A stretch of DNA of 64,000 bases from Silvibacterium dinghuense (lineage in GTDB: Bacteria > Acidobacteriota > Terriglobia > Terriglobales > Acidobacteriaceae): the NCBI RefSeq assembly GCF_004123295.1, contig NZ_SDMK01000002.1:310001-374000 (forward strand). The letters run 5' to 3'. The notes under the pieces were generated by a model that saw nothing but the letters and a program-made list of their open reading frames with translations, was not told where the DNA came from and did no database searches. Shown here piece by piece: positions 48,104 through 56,452 of this stretch (position 1 is its first letter; every line of letters begins with the position of its first letter). The position numbers and the translations under genes were made by a program.

Positions 48104-50296
48104 ATGGCGCGTAGTACAGCCTCAGGAACAGAACGGAGCAGGACAACGCCATCGGCGACTCTATCCTCGACGCTTTCCGCGGAACAGCTTGTTTCGATCT
48201 ACCGGCTGATGTATCTCTCCCGGCGCGTGGACGACCGCGAGATCCTGCTGAAGCGGCAGCAGAAGATTTTCTTCCAGATTTCGGCCGCAGGCCACGAAGC
48301 GCTTCAGGTAGCGGCGGGCGTAGTGCTGAAATCCGGTTATGACTGGTTCTTCCCGTACTACCGCGATCGCGCGCTGTGCCTGGCATTGGGGGTAACGGCG
48401 GAAGAGTTGCTGCTGCAAGCGGTGGGCGCGGCGGCGGACCCGGCAAGCGGCGGGCGGCAGATGCCGTCGCACTGGAGCAGCCCGAAGCACCATATCGTGT
48501 CGCAGTCTTCGTGCACCGCCTCGCAGTGCCTGCACGCGGTCGGCTGCGCAGAGGCGGGACGGTACTTTACGAAGCACCCGGAAGCGGCGCAGAAGCATGA
48601 CGGCGACTACCGGCAGTGGAAGGATGTGACCTTCCATGGCGATGAAGTCGTTTACATGTCCGTGGGCGAGGGTTCCACCTCGCAGGGTGAGTTCTGGGAA
48701 TCGCTGAATACGGCTTCGAATGAGAAGCTGCCGGTGATCTTTGTCGTGGAGAACAACGGCTATGCGATCTCCACGCCGGTAGAGGTGAACACGCCGGGCG
48801 GAAACATCTCGACTCTGGTCGCCAACTTTCCGAACTTCCATTTTGCGGAGATCGACGGCACCGATCCGGTCGCATGCGTGAAGGCCTTTGAAGAGGCGGC
48901 GGCCTGGTGCCGCGCCGGCAACGGTCCGGCTTTCATTCATGGTCACGTGATTCGTCCCTATTCGCACTCGCTTTCGGATGATGACCGGCTCTACCGGCCG
49001 GAAAGCGAACGCGAAGCCGATGCGCTGCGCGATCCGCTCTCGAAGACACAGATGCTCCTGCTGCGCGAAGGCATTCTCGACGCGGACGGCATCAACAGGC
49101 TCGAGAAGGAAGTGGACGAAGAGGTGCGCCAGGCGGCAGACCGCGCGGTGCGCGCGCCTCTGCCTGAGCCGACCAAGGCGGCGATTCTGAAGCACGTCTA
49201 TTCCGAGGACTACGATCCGACCTCGCAAACGCTTGCAAGCGTACCGTTGCGCACGGCGGATAACCAGGAACGCACCATGGCCGACCTCATCAACGCATGC
49301 CTGCGCGATGAGATGCGGCGCGATCCTCGCATTGTGATCTTTGGCGAAGATGTGGCGGATGCTTCGCGCGAAGAGTATCTCAAGCAGGGACTGGTCAAGG
49401 GCAAGGGCGGCGTCTTCAAGCTGACGGCAGGTCTGCAGGCGGAGTTCGGCGGGGAGCGGGTCTTCAACTCGCCTCTGGCTGAAGCGAATATCGTCGGCCG
49501 GGCGGTCGGCATGGCCGCGCGCGGCATGAAGCCGGTCGTCGAGATTCAGTTCTTCGATTACATCTGGCCAGCCATGCACCAGCTACGCAATGAGCTGCCG
49601 CTGATGCGCTGGCGCTCGAATGGGACGTGGTCGTCTCCGGTGGTGGTGCGTGTGCCGATCGGCGGCTATCTCACCGGCGGTTCGGTTTATCACTCGCAGT
49701 CGGGCGAAAGCATCTTCACGCACACCCCGGGCGTACGCGTGGTTTTCCCCTCGAATGCGCTCGATGCCAACGGGCTGCTGCGGACGGCGATCCGCTGCGA
49801 TGATCCTGTGCTCTTCCTCGAGCACAAGCGCCTTTACCGCGAGACCTACGGCCGCGCTGCCTATCCGGGACCGGACTACACGATTCCGTTCGGCAAGGCT
49901 GCGAAGGTGCGCGAAGGGAAAGACATCACGCTGGTGACTTACGGTGCGACGGTGCCACGCGCACTGCAGGCGGCGCAGAAGGCGGAGCGGGAACAGGGTA
50001 TCCAGACGGAGATTCTCGACTTGCGCACGCTCAATCCCTACGACTGGGAGGCGATTGCCGAGTCCGTGCGCAAGACCAGCCGCGTGATGGTGGTGCATGA
50101 GGATATGCAGAGCTGGGGCTTTGGCGCCGAAATCGCGGCGCGCATTGCAGACGAGCTCTTCCTCGATCTCGATGCGCCGGTAAAACGCGTGGCTTCGATG
50201 GACACGTTCGTGGCTTACCAACCGATTCTCGAAGACGTGATCCTGCCACAGCCTGAAGATATCTACCAGGCAATCGTCGATCTGCGGGCGTTCTAG
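48104..50296 (+). CDS. 2-oxoacid dehydrogenase E1, fused alpha and beta subunits
   Basis: 730 residues. The alpha part (about 1-360) binds thiamine diphosphate: [15 protein letters not shown] and VENNGYAIS. The beta part (about 390-730) has [37 protein letters not shown], and SYHSQ-like substrate loop [17 protein letters not shown]. Fusion of both subunits occurs in some Acidobacteriota and Bacteroidota and gives a branched-chain or pyruvate-type E1. No E2 or E3 gene adjoins. The start ATG 48104 has GAGGAG 5 bp upstream. The reaction is decarboxylation of a 2-oxoacid and transfer to lipoyl-E2. Confidence 0.93.
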
Positions 50297-50604: not shown

Positions 50605-50693
50605 CGGCAGGTTCCTCCACTTTGCTTCTCCACCCCAGCGAGCCAACGTCGGGCACGCCGGGGACCCCGGTTCGCTCCGGTCGGAATGACAAC
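50605..50693. repeat. Dispersed repeat type D, copy 4
   Basis: ACGGCAGGTTCCTCCACTTT, a middle part with ccaacgtcgggcacgccggg, and GCTCCGGTCGGAATGACAAC (50674-50693). It lies between the 53-residue ORF and the ABC exporter stop. Confidence 0.65.
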
Positions 50694-52498: not shown

Positions 52499-54817
52499 CT
52501 AGGTGGACGACCGCAAGAGCAGGTATCCGCCGGCCAGAGCAAAGATGACGTCCGGCGACCAGGCGGCAAGGACCGCCGGCAGCAGGTTGACATCCCCCAT
52601 GGCCTCAAACGTACCGGATACCACGAAGTATGCGATCGCCACCCCGATGGCTACGCCGATGCCGGCCAGCGAGCCGCGCTTGCCCATGGTCAGGGCGAAG
52701 GGAACGGCGAGAATGGCCATCACGAACGTAATCATTGGATACGACAGCTTCTTGTTTAGCTGCACCTTTAAGCGCATGGTGTCGAAGCCGCTCTGGCTGA
52801 GATCGTGGATATAGCGCCGCAACTCCTCGAAGCTCATTTCTGTCGAGAGGCGGACTTCCTTCTTGAAGTACTGCGGCTCCTCGACAATCTCCGGGAAGGT
52901 GCTCACGTCGAAGGTCTGGTAGTTGCTGATCTCTTCGCCCGAGAAGCTGCGGTCCCAGCCATGTTCGAAGACCCACTTGTGCAGATGCGGCTCCCAGTGG
53001 GCGCTGGAGGCGTGGATACGCCGGGTGAGCGAGAAGGTGTCGCGGTTGAACTCAAAGACCGTCACGTTGCCGAAGGTGTTCTGGTCGGCGTCGAAGTACT
53101 CGTAGAAGAAGATACGGCTGGGCTGGCCCTTCTGCTGCAGGCCGAAGATCCAGTTCTGCCCCGGATGCTCCATGGTCTGTGGCGGCCGGCCTTTGATGAC
53201 ATTGCGCAGCGCCTCCTGCTTGCGGTTGGCCTTGGGCAGGTAGGCTTCGTCGAAGACAAAGAGCGAGGTGGCGAGAATGGCCGAGATCACCATGACCGGC
53301 AGCACGATCCGGTAGAGGCTGATGCCGGAGGCCTTCATCGCCGTCAGTTCGCTCGAGCGGTTGAGCAGGCCGAAGACCACCAGCACGGCAACCAGGACGC
53401 AAAGCGGCGTGATGATGTAGATCTGGCTGGGCGCGAGATTGAGCAGGTATTCGCCCACAATGAGCAAGGGCGTCCGGTTGCGGATAATGTCGCCGAGCAG
53501 TTCGAGGAAGGTGAAGACCAGGAGCAGCATCACGAAGGTGATGAGCACCATGAAGAAGACACCGAGGAACTGCTTCAGGACATATTCGTCGAGGATGAGA
53601 GGGAAGTGCCCGCGGGTGCTGCGAAGACGAGCCGTGGCGGTGCGGCCTTTGGTGCTGGCGTTTTCGTCCTTCGCCGAAGATTTGAACCACGATCCGATGG
53701 AGCTGACGGCCGCGAGCGCCGCGCCGCCGGAGGACATCTGGCGCAGCAGGAATACGCCGCAGGCGGCAAAGATGGCATTCGCGGCCCAGGCGCCGACCGC
53801 TGCCGAGACCTTGCCCTGGCGAGCGAGCGCGGTGCCCGTATAGGAAAGGATGTAGTAAAGGAAGACCAGGACAATGCTGAGCACAAAACCCGCACTCTTG
53901 CCGCCGCGCTTGGACGTAATGCCCAGGGGCACTCCGACCAGCATAAGAACGATGCAGGCGGCAGGATAGGCGAAGCGCTTATGCAGCTCGAGCAGGTACC
54001 ACTTGCCGCCTTTGAGGTGCGAACGCCGCAGCAACTCCGTGTTGGACATGGCCAGAATCGGCGACTCGCCGCGTGAGGCGTGCGAGTCCTCCTGCGGAAT
54101 CAGCTGCAGGGGCAGGTCCGTCTGCGAAAACGTGGAGACGGTGTAATGATCCGGCTGGTCGGGGTCGGATTGGTGTTCGGTTCCATCCCGCAGCCGCATG
54201 ATCGCGGCCTCACCTTTATGGTCTACGACGGTGGCGCTGGCGCCGGTCGTGATCTTTGGCGAGGTGGGGTCGGAGAGATCGGCGAGGAAGACCTGCGTCC
54301 ATTCCGCCGCGCCGGAGATAGCGCGCACATTTTCTACATAAAGGACGTAATTCTTGAAGTCTTCGTAGAAGACCCGGGGCTGAACCTCATAAGAAGCCTG
54401 GGCATTCAGCAGGTCAGCCTCGAGGTGCATGGAGGTCGCCGTAGCCAGCGGAGCGAGGTACAGCGTATTGCCGAGGCCGAGCAGCCAGCCGATGACCGCA
54501 ACACTGCTGACGACTCCTACAAACCGCCATACGCCGACGCCGGAGGCGCGCATGGCCGTGATTTCACTGTCGGCTGCGAGACGGCTGAGCCCGAGCAGGA
54601 TGCCCACAAGCACGGACATGGGAATCGTGACCGTGAACATGTTGGGCAGCATGAGGAAAAAGATGGCCGCGACGATTCCCAGCGAGGAGCTGTTCCGTAC
54701 CACCAGCTCAAGCAGGTGGTAGATGTGCGGCATGAAAAGAACGAAGGTGAAAATCGCCCCGCCGATGAGGGCGTGGGACAGCACTTCCTTGAGGATGTAA
54801 CGAGTGAGGATGCGCAC
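52499..54817 (-). CDS. LptF-LptG fused permease for LPS export
   Basis: 772 residues containing two YjgP/YjgQ domains in one chain. The first (about 1-365) starts MRILTRYILKEVLSHA and the second starts near residue 410 at LDEYVLKQFLGVFFMVLITF; each has TM helices, an Ig-like periplasmic insert (jellyroll) and a GSLAG or similar end. In E. coli LptF and LptG are separate and form the LptB2FG transporter that lifts lipopolysaccharide from the inner membrane. Fusion means a fixed 1:1 ratio. It lies 27 bp before the ABC exporter gene, so the two likely form an envelope operon. LptB and LptC are not in this window. Confidence 0.93.
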   Translation of the reverse strand: MRILTRYILKEVLSHALIGGAIFTFVLFMPHIYHLLELVVRNSSSLGIVAAIFFLMLPNMFTVTIPMSVLVGILLGLSRLAADSEITAMRASGVGVWRFVGVVSSVAVIGWLLGLGNTLYLAPLATATSMHLEADLLNAQASYEVQPRVFYEDFKNYVLYVENVRAISGAAEWTQVFLADLSDPTSPKITTGASATVVDHKGEAAIMRLRDGTEHQSDPDQPDHYTVSTFSQTDLPLQLIPQEDSHASRGESPILAMSNTELLRRSHLKGGKWYLLELHKRFAYPAACIVLMLVGVPLGITSKRGGKSAGFVLSIVLVFLYYILSYTGTALARQGKVSAAVGAWAANAIFAACGVFLLRQMSSGGAALAAVSSIGSWFKSSAKDENASTKGRTATARLRSTRGHFPLILDEYVLKQFLGVFFMVLITFVMLLLVFTFLELLGDIIRNRTPLLIVGEYLLNLAPSQIYIITPLCVLVAVLVVFGLLNRSSELTAMKASGISLYRIVLPVMVISAILATSLFVFDEAYLPKANRKQEALRNVIKGRPPQTMEHPGQNWIFGLQQKGQPSRIFFYEYFDADQNTFGNVTVFEFNRDTFSLTRRIHASSAHWEPHLHKWVFEHGWDRSFSGEEISNYQTFDVSTFPEIVEEPQYFKKEVRLSTEMSFEELRRYIHDLSQSGFDTMRLKVQLNKKLSYPMITFVMAILAVPFALTMGKRGSLAGIGVAIGVAIAYFVVSGTFEAMGDVNLLPAVLAAWSPDVIFALAGGYLLLRSST

Positions 54818-54836
54818 GAAACTTCTTTCCGAGGTT

Positions 54837-55149
54837 TAGAGCCTGTTATGCCTTTTCCGGCGGTCGTCGCTGGGCGCCAATTTTTTCGAGGTCGAGGAGT
54901 GAGTTGCGACGGATATCGGGTTATATCCGAGCAGCGAACGACGAAGAGATCGGGAAAATTGGCCCCAGCCCTTCGGGTTGCGGGGAAAATCGGCCCATAC
55001 TTCGTTGTCGGCCTCGCCTTGGAATGACCAAAGCCTTCGTCCTCCGCCTCGTCTCCCACCCCGCGGACGGAGACCTGTCCGTGGGGACCCCGGTCTGGGC
55101 CGATTTTCCCTCGCAACGACGACCACGGGAAAAGACATAACAGGCTCTA
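54837..55149. mobile_element. MITE-like element with terminal inverted repeats
   Basis: About 37-bp imperfect terminal inverted repeats, 54837-54873 and 55113-55149: the left begins TAGAGCCTGTTATG and the right ends CATAACAGGCTCTA. They flank 240 bp with no ORF of merit. The outer TA on both sides could be a TA target duplication, as made by IS630/mariner or some IS5-like transposases. Internal repeats (GGGAAAATCGGCCC at 54983-54996, inverted at 55097-55110) add structure. No transposase gene is present. Confidence 0.65.
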
Positions 55150-55186
55150 GTGTACCGTGCGCTGAGCGATGCGGGGCGCAGACAGG

Positions 55187-55642
55187 CTATTTTGCAGGTT
55201 GATAACTGCCAACTTCCGGACGAAAAGCGATGGCAATGCGATTCCAGCTGTTGATCTGGGTAATGGCAAAGGTGAGCACGGCAAGCTGGTGCTCATCGAA
55301 TTCGGCCCGGACTTCCTCGTAGACCGCGTCGGCGGCGTGTCCCTGCTGGATGTTGGTGACGGCCTCGGTCCAGGCGAGAGCCGCACATTCGCGTCCGGAA
55401 AAGAAGGGTGTCTCACGCCAGGCATTCAGGACATAGAGGCGCTGCTCCGTCTCGCCGTGGGCACGGGCGTCCTTACTGTGCATGTCCAGGCAGTATGCGC
55501 AGCCGTTCAGCTGGGAGGCGCGCATCTTTACCAGCTCGAGGAGAGAGGCCTCAAGACCGCCGCGCCGGATGACCGCTTCCAGGTGATACATCGCCTGGAC
55601 GGCTTCAGGAAAGGCCGATTTGTAATCGAGACGTTCGGACAT
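55187..55642 (-). CDS. AhpD-like carboxymuconolactone decarboxylase-family protein
   Basis: 151 residues. The peroxidase-type motif CAYCLDMHSKDARAHGE with Cys48 and Cys51 matches the AhpD-like group, as does RETPFFSGRECAALAWTEAVT. Members reduce peroxides or act as thiol-disulfide exchange proteins. It is the last gene on the strand of the desaturase/kinase/regulator set, 72 bp after the regulator gene stop, so it may be co-expressed. An upstream in-frame ATG (55705) would add 21 residues; I chose ATG 55642 (MSERLDYKSAFPEAVQAMYH), typical of the family. Confidence 0.9.
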   Translation of the reverse strand: MSERLDYKSAFPEAVQAMYHLEAVIRRGGLEASLLELVKMRASQLNGCAYCLDMHSKDARAHGETEQRLYVLNAWRETPFFSGRECAALAWTEAVTNIQQGHAADAVYEEVRAEFDEHQLAVLTFAITQINSWNRIAIAFRPEVGSYQPAK

Positions 55643-55714
55643 GTTTGCACCCGATGAAATAGATGAAGAGGCAGAGCGGAGAGTCGCCTGGAATTTTGAG
55701 AACAAGCCGCAGTA

Positions 55715-56452
55715 TCAGGCCGAACTGTGAAACCGGTATCCCACACCGCGAACGGTCTGGAGATAGACGGGGCGCGAAGGCTCGTCTTCGAGATAACGCC
55801 GCAGGCGGACAATGAAGTTGTCGATAGCGCGAGTGTCGGTGTCCTCGTGAAGCCGCCAGACCTGCTCTAAGAGCTCCTTGCGGGAGACAATGCGGCCACG
55901 GTTCTGGATGAGGTAGCGGAGAAGGTCGGCTTCCATCAGGGTGAGGTGCGTGGTGCGGCCTAACGCCGTCAGCTCGAGGGATTCGAAGTCAATGATGCGG
56001 CCGTCGAACTCGAAGCGGGCCGGCACGCTGCTCTGGACCGCAGCTATCTCGACAGGCTGCTGTGCGCTGGGGCGATGCCATTGCATGCGCCGCAGCAGGC
56101 CGTTGAGCCGGGCAAGCAGGATGGAAAGATCGAAGGGCTTGGTGAGGTAGTCGTCGGCACCGGATTCAAAGCCGAGGAGCACATCTTCGGGGCGGCCGCG
56201 GGCGGTAAGGATCATCACCGGAACGAAACTCTCGCGGGCGCGCAGCTCGGCCACGACTTCGAAACCACTTTTGCCGGGGAGCATGGCGTCGAGAAGAACG
56301 GCATCGAAGGAATCCTCGGCCAGACGCTCGAGCGCGCCCTCGCCATCGCCCTCAATCAGCACATCGTAGCCCTCGGCCTGCAGGTTAAAAGAAAGTCCCT
56401 GGGCGAGATGGGCTTCGTCTTCGACGACAAGAATGCGGGCCGGTGTGCTCAT
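55715..56452 (-). CDS. OmpR/PhoB-family response regulator
   Basis: 245 residues. Receiver domain with ILVVEDE, phospho-acceptor Asp55 in VLLDAMLPG and KPFD; C-terminal winged helix with HLTLMEADLLRYLIQNRGRIVSRKELLEQVW and a DNA-recognition RAIDNFIVRLRRYLE. It pairs with the kinase gene just upstream: the two overlap by 4 bp (ATGA), so translation is coupled. Targets are unknown. Confidence 0.96.
   Translation of the reverse strand: MSTPARILVVEDEAHLAQGLSFNLQAEGYDVLIEGDGEGALERLAEDSFDAVLLDAMLPGKSGFEVVAELRARESFVPVMILTARGRPEDVLLGFESGADDYLTKPFDLSILLARLNGLLRRMQWHRPSAQQPVEIAAVQSSVPARFEFDGRIIDFESLELTALGRTTHLTLMEADLLRYLIQNRGRIVSRKELLEQVWRLHEDTDTRAIDNFIVRLRRYLEDEPSRPVYLQTVRGVGYRFHSSA

Follow-up and report, generated by a model that had tools for sequence, protein, structure and literature searches.

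The Element and Its Anatomy

The 64,000-nucleotide stretch of Silvibacterium dinghuense DNA analysed here (the window; C2:310001-374000 of the 5.1-Mb genome, which is in 9 contigs and is called G000 below) carries a segment that folds back on itself just upstream of a fused LPS-export gene, and the question is what this segment is, how it came to stand there and what it could do to the gene behind it. A sequence-only reading had described it as a MITE-like element with imperfect inverted repeats of about 37 bp, a shared TA at each outer end and an internal inverted repeat. The two terminal arms lie at 54837-54872 (+ strand, starting TAGAGCCTGTTATGCCTTTTCC) and 55114-55149 (− strand, starting TAGAGCCTGTTATGTCTTTTCC), each including the TA, and they are 36 nt long and 89% complementary. 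The TA dinucleotides, at 54837-54838 and 55148-55149, are assigned to the target duplication on the sequence and on the borders across copies; between them is the MITE proper, GAG...CTC, of 309 bp (54839-55147). Two internal inverted repeats were found: a left inner foldback at 54873-54966 (arms 54873-54889 and 54950-54966), and a right one at 54983-55110 (arms 54983-55000 and 55093-55110), which encloses a further hairpin module. The + strand is predicted to fold at −175.9 kcal/mol (z = −10.7) and the − strand with z = −9.7, and in neither case did any of 100 shuffles equal the value.

That no similar element occurs elsewhere in the window holds true for these ends, the 11-nt end TAGAGCCTGTT being present once per strand. 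A scan of the 64 kb for arm pairs (exact seeds of 12 nt; 36-nt arms that match at 30 positions or more and lie no further than 450 bp apart) gave the pair at 54837-55149 and otherwise nothing but its shifted registers.

Copies in the Genome and in Relatives

Further copies are numerous outside the window. The element used as query matched 60 pieces in G000, which resolved into 26 two-ended copies, the one in the window included, plus fragments; two copies with a missing or diverged end (L041, L042) and the partial ones L043-L046 were excluded from the 26-copy alignment and from the border counts. The two-ended copies measure 267-312 nt from AGAG to CTCT and share 75-98% identity in pairs, the nearest to the window copy being L017, at 95%. 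No two of them are identical, the closest pair standing at 97.8%, and very recent movement is therefore not indicated. As anticipated, the element contains no ORF of merit: the mechanical ORFs of 100 aa (−) and 78 aa (+) were not kept, and neither gave a Pfam family at E ≤ 1. The minus frame is open to the end in 9/26 copies and the plus frame in 11/26, and the remaining copies stop at varied positions, so that nothing suggests a conserved protein.

G000 also has isolated ends, about 11-25 nt long, at C1:892599, C4:257251, C5:104093, C5:106310 and C1:120117 (L047-L050). None of the five has a partner end closer than 3 kb, and they are probably remnants. Inspection by eye placed two of them where a proC-like and a ctaA-like gene stop, one at a kinase-like stop, one in a rimM-trmD gap and one ahead of the start of another gene. 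Close to the contig ends of G000 the only exact end belongs to L041, a fragmentary copy at C4:1426; all further matches there are inexact.

Matches to the element were obtained in 12 of 61 genomes, with cores at 71-78% in G006, G020, G004 and G002; several of the remaining ones consist of a 38-nt module alone, and G280 holds longer relatives of the MITE, about 75% identical over part of their length. Of the nine genomes in the genus, only G000 and G006 contain the 13-nt end in exact form.

Borders and Target Rule

With the element taken as GAG...CTC, TA stands on both sides in 13 of the 26 copies, the window copy among them, and nine of these 13 read CT|...|AG, like an interrupted CTAG. Three more copies have an identical TNA at both borders, and the other ten have neither arrangement; several of the ten show T-N-A on a side, with an N that differs between sides, a pattern that an exchange of flanks, or one extra base taken along, could give. 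In the window CTAG is some ten times rarer than base composition predicts (21 observed against 223 expected), hence the CTAG borders are not due to chance.

The element ends read TAG outward, and in six copies (L019, L020, L021, L025, L027 and L029; in L027 on both sides) the end of a gene abuts the border, according to a rough GC3-based reading. In the case of L027, the orthologue in G006 shares the position of its stop codon. These stop-codon sites follow from a CTAG/CTNAG target and do not call for a special function. By the same rough reading, possible frames span 9/26 of the joined sites, so that not every site is proved intergenic.

Empty sites were sought within the genus for six copies (L020, L021, L024, L027, L029 and L035). 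The flanks of L021, L024 and L029 had no match in the genus outside G000, and those of L020 only a one-sided match, in G001. The genes that flank L035 are also present in G006, where the element is missing; for L027 and L035 the genes match and the intergenic DNA has diverged, so that the comparison demonstrates the absence of the element and nothing finer.

A Probable IS5-Type Partner

If the element is moved by an enzyme encoded elsewhere, the same ends should be found around a transposase gene. The sequence TAGAGCCTGTTATG was present in 35 of the 397 genomes searched in the order, and in one of them (G297, locus L093) an intact 271-aa transposase lies between two of these ends, in an element that measures 893 bp from A to T. 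Both 18-nt ends of this locus agree at every position with the consensus for the ends of the G000 copies, and its borders are CTAG. The protein matches PF01609, PF13340 and NF033580 (transpos_IS5_3, IS5 family; 201.1 bits, with a cut-off of 110). A second such element, with a shortened transposase frame, is in G247.

A scan of named genomes with a 19-mer gave at least 120 stretches, 80 of which were fetched, and the counts that follow therefore describe a sample; the taxa listed for these stretches comprise Acidobacteria, Anaerolineae, other Chloroflexi, Armatimonadetes, Burkholderiales and others. Together with 20 loci from the search of the order, 100 loci were inspected, in which the same contig appears under two names in the pairs L106/L163 and L103/L166. 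In 12 loci a pair of ends encloses a transposase match, not always intact, and in 50 a pair of ends encloses none; of these 50, 49 measure 53-519 bp and one (L188) 1202 bp. In another 13 loci a single end stands next to a transposase match, and 25 show neither arrangement. All 12 transposase-bearing two-ended loci have TA on both sides, and seven have CTAG, though the search pattern itself fixed the T at one end. Likewise, their ends are within a few changes of AGAGCCTGTTATGAACTT, one end of each having been fixed by the pattern. The ends of the window copy depart from those of the insertion sequences at positions 14-16, where they read CCT or TCT, not AAC. The agreement of ends and target in these 12 loci indicates that the MITE and the IS5-type element share both.

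Two-ended elements of 140-455 bp at L095-L098 (in G372), L113, L126 and L132 have the common ends and no further match to this MITE; several MITE families thus seem to use the same IS5-type ends.

The search for an autonomous transposase with these ends, which the sequence-only reading had proposed, was successful in other genomes (L093 and 11 further loci) and gave nothing in the readable DNA of G000. There, the search covered PF01609 and the L093 protein, with C8 (1155 bp) and C9 (344 bp) read as N. Among 67 exact 10-nt AGAGCCTGTT ends no +/− pair lay 400-5000 bp apart, and the L093 protein had no match in G000; in G006, G001 and G007 it matched only pieces at 26-41% identity. For G006, the list of exact ends was inspected for pairs by eye only. 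The PF01609 matches in G000 (three, two of them with a stop) belong to just two decayed IS5-like remnants, which were rejected as the partner because they are decayed and their visible ends are different, CTAGGGCGTGT in one and CTAGGGCGTAT in the other. A separate IS5-like element of 905 bp was noticed in G006 (C23:1772-2676; L071 1466-2370), with perfect 20-nt TIRs of another sequence, TAGAGCGTGTTTCATAAACA. As no intact IS5-type partner is in the readable DNA of G000, the family looks stranded there, its partner apparently lost.

The description as MITE-like is borne out by its shortness, the lack of a transposase, the TIRs, the TA borders, the 26 dispersed copies and their polymorphic presence. 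The element is multi-copy, it has ends and target in common with IS5-type insertion sequences, and it is absent at the orthologous site of relatives. From these comparisons of sequences, we consider it very probable that the segment is a MITE and that a DDE transposase of the IS5 family moved it in trans. The enzyme (NCBIfam transpos_IS5_3) would recognise ends of the AGAGCCTGTTATGAACTT type and would insert at CTAG, or CTNAG, duplicating TA, or TNA; the transposition itself is inferred.

The Insertion Site Upstream of lptFG

The gene behind the element is indeed a fused LPS-export gene, on the − strand at 52499-54817, which encodes 772 aa with LptF at 3-359 and LptG at 408-769. Only 19 nt (54818-54836) separate its start codon from the element with its TA, and they contain, as judged by eye, a putative ribosome-binding site GGAAAG (54825-54830, − strand), outside the hairpin. 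On the other side, a conserved −10-like motif (55149-55158, − strand; ACGGTACACT in the sense of the gene, GATAMACT in four aligned relatives) adjoins the insertion.

Six of the eight other genomes of the genus gave a match to lptF, while G002 and G003 gave none, and the element was unmatched at this locus in all six relatives fetched. In G001 (L066) the empty site reads GATAAACTAGGAG, with CTAG at the position of the element, and the window reads GGTACACTAAACC once the element is removed; with TA at both borders here, the comparison agrees with the proposed TA duplication. GATAMACT stands just upstream in four of the five relatives aligned by their start codons (L065, L066, L067 and L069). 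At its position L070 reads GAATCGACT, and L068, which is outside the start-anchored alignment, reads GATAAAAT by eye. The insertion thus lies between this motif and the start of lptFG, and the claim that the element sits in the promoter region is strengthened by having the conserved −10-like motif directly beside it. A promoter scan of 54700-55760 found no sigma-70 site; for this reason it is from the comparison of relatives that we infer that GATAMACT, whose TAMACT resembles a −10 box, may be a promoter.

What would follow for lptFG? The element would have entered a TA directly downstream of the −10-like motif, and a transcript from that putative promoter would start in or at the element and carry a hairpin leader of about 313 nt. 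For this leader together with the start of the coding sequence, 360 nt in all, the predicted folding energy is −171.6 kcal/mol. In this predicted fold GGAAAG is outside the big hairpin, with a pairing probability of 0.19-0.62 per base, and the ribosome-binding site would therefore stay outside the leader hairpin. The likeliest effect would concern the stability or the processing of the lptFG mRNA (by RNase III), and not the accessibility of its start codon.

Further upstream, a CMD/AhpD-type gene (55187-55705) lies between lptFG and a gene that, by eye, is response-regulator-like. In G006 and G005 the response-regulator-like gene is 335 and 114 bp from lptF, respectively, and the CMD/AhpD-type gene is unmatched there; in G001, G008 and G007 the gap is filled by other DNA, about 2.5 kb long. 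More than one insertion seems to have occurred at this spot upstream of lptF.

Concerted Change of the Two Arms

In the 26-copy alignment, read on the fold of the window copy, 93.1% of the cells pair, in comparison with 91.1 ± 0.2% after shuffling. The pairs changed on both sides are 20, compared to 6.9 ± 1.4 after shuffling (0/500) and 3-8 in slid versions, and 11 of the 20 sit in the 28-pair terminal helix. Examples are AGAGGGTG...CACCCTCT in L018, L019 and L023, and TTCACGATC...GATCGTGAA in L039. A fold taken from one of the 26 sequences favours paired cells, and relatedness among the copies inflates the counts; even so, double changes are more numerous than in the slid controls. On the other hand, the terminal helix has three pairs that are not formed in 19-22 of the 26 copies, contrary to strict pairing. 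The two arms change in concert; either copying from arm to arm or selection on the fold would give the pattern of double changes.

These compensatory changes, together with the strong fold on both strands and the position 19 nt from the lptFG start codon, are what one might expect if the segment were a conserved structured RNA, or a cis-regulatory element of lptFG, which happens to fold back on itself. This reading is highly improbable. It is largely refuted by the 25 other two-ended copies across the genome; moreover, Rfam gave 0 matches at gathering score in 54500-55500, the element is unmatched at the lptF locus of the six relatives, and the TA borders speak against it. The 26 natural copies of the MITE suit the study of how such arms evolve in concert.

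A Hairpin Module Inside and Outside the MITE

The right inner foldback encloses, on the + strand, a hairpin module that a GTCT repeat delimits on either side (55051-55054 and 55093-55096; 55051-55096 as a whole), in which CACCCC-stem-GGGGACCCC occupies 55057-55091. The full 42-bp module is in three of the 26 copies (window, L016 and L037), only its edges are in L040, and it is absent from 22. The pattern, with exact ends and a middle of 16-22 nt, occurs in 21/61 genomes with 205 matches, 78 of them in G045, versus 2 for the reversed control; in G000 its three matches are the three MITE copies. A 38-nt variant of CACCCC-stem-GGGGACCCC was also noticed in the window at 50631-50668, between ORFs ending at 50296 and 50714. 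The stem covaries: over 26 distinct 35-nt module sequences taken from these 205 matches, positions 8/25 are C-G in 15, G-C in six, T-A in three and A-T in two.

In places the modules stand in tandem, at spacings of 39-43 bp. Tandem modules were seen in the G280 relative of the MITE L107 (1561-1939) and, free of any MITE, in G016 (L062 2020-2150); in both, the spacer is alike within an array and different between arrays. The long relatives in G280 (L107 and L108) have the module at the corresponding place, L107 with three tandem 43-bp modules.

The long form could be a younger composite, in which the module was inserted into a 270-bp MITE with GTCT as its duplication. The full module in only three of 26 copies, with a remnant in one, the GTCT on both its sides and its existence outside MITEs would fit such an origin. 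However, the diverged copy L040 retains the module edges, and L107 and L108 carry the module at the matching place; these two observations favour an ancestral module, lost between the GTCT repeats in the short copies, and we regard the younger composite as doubtful.

The module also bears on whether the element is a repeat of the REP/REPIN or 'TIRYT' type, spread by a tyrosine (Y1) transposase and not by a DDE enzyme. The 42-bp module is REP-like in being short, palindromic, dispersed and tandem, and CGTC stands a few bases to its left in the window copy, L016, L037 and L108. G000 has one Y1 transposase locus, and one Y1 locus of G016 is ringed by other palindromes; in addition, tyrosine transposases flanked by TIRs are on record as a sharply defined group in Acidobacteria, according to the portion consulted of PMC3733652. 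Still, the element as a whole has TIRs and TA borders like DDE elements, its ends match those of IS5-type elements, and free modules mostly lack CGTC. In seven genomes searched, five of which had any Y1 match, none of the nine Y1 loci carries the ends of the element or the module, even allowing one mismatch for the latter, and the palindromes beside the two Y1 loci that were viewed have other sequences. A Y1 origin therefore has a very small chance of being right, and a DDE-mobilised MITE stays the preferred reading. As to those two loci, in L264 (G016 C2 near 19727) a GCTCATCGC-type palindrome that ends in GGGGCACAG or similar is present five times or more, and L265 (G000 C1 near 2075683) has a 40-nt, 93% inverted pair beside the Y1 transposase; both differ from the MITE and from the module, and are built in a way similar to the latter.

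A wider picture can be sketched, namely a stranded MITE whose arms are kept alike by hairpin-templated copying or by selection on the fold, which gives a ride to a structured module found class-wide, and whose insertion at lptFG has replaced a short leader by a 313-nt hairpin that sets the level of the lptFG mRNA. We offer it as a speculation that, taken as a whole, is unlikely to be correct.

Comparison with Known Systems

In the literature consulted on Acidobacteria there was nothing on a MITE of this kind. The present data describe an Acidobacteriaceae MITE family for which the type of transposase is identified, a target rule can be stated and an empty site is known almost exactly. One insertion adjoins a conserved motif before an LPS export gene, and bears on whether such hairpins regulate; a possible effect on lptFG expression and the possible copying from arm to arm would be parts of the chief further interest.

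As for the module, the literature consulted does not appear to describe it, a weak hint that it may be new. The portion consulted of PMC4596501 reports that the BrickBuilt MITE of Porphyromonas gingivalis has an internal minisatellite, and L107, with its three tandem 43-bp modules, is comparable as a MITE with an internal repeat array; the module here differs in being palindromic and in occurring also free of the MITE in other genomes. The GTAG/CGTC-tagged REPs and TIRYT-associated repeats, as described in the portion consulted of PMC3733652, are likewise short dispersed palindromes with lineage-specific stems, as the 42-bp module is. For the module, no consistent GTAG/CGTC tag was seen and, among the nine Y1 loci, no adjoining Y1 transposase, which sets it apart from them by description only.

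For the whole element, Correia elements offer a parallel, being short, non-coding, fold-back and multi-copy as well. They insert at TA. Their ends, host phylum and partner are different from those of this MITE. When present in mRNA, Correia elements can be cut by RNase III, as the consulted portion of PMC10969869 states.

The closest relationship is with the IS5 family (NF033580, transpos_IS5_3), with which the MITE shares the 18-nt ends AGAGCCTGTTATGAACTT, the CTAG target and the TA borders, while it has no transposase and an interior of its own, with no match to the full-length insertion-sequence loci. The sub-group names that go with this family are IS427/IS1031. That the element is a MITE of a known kind, with its partner type identified, is well supported.
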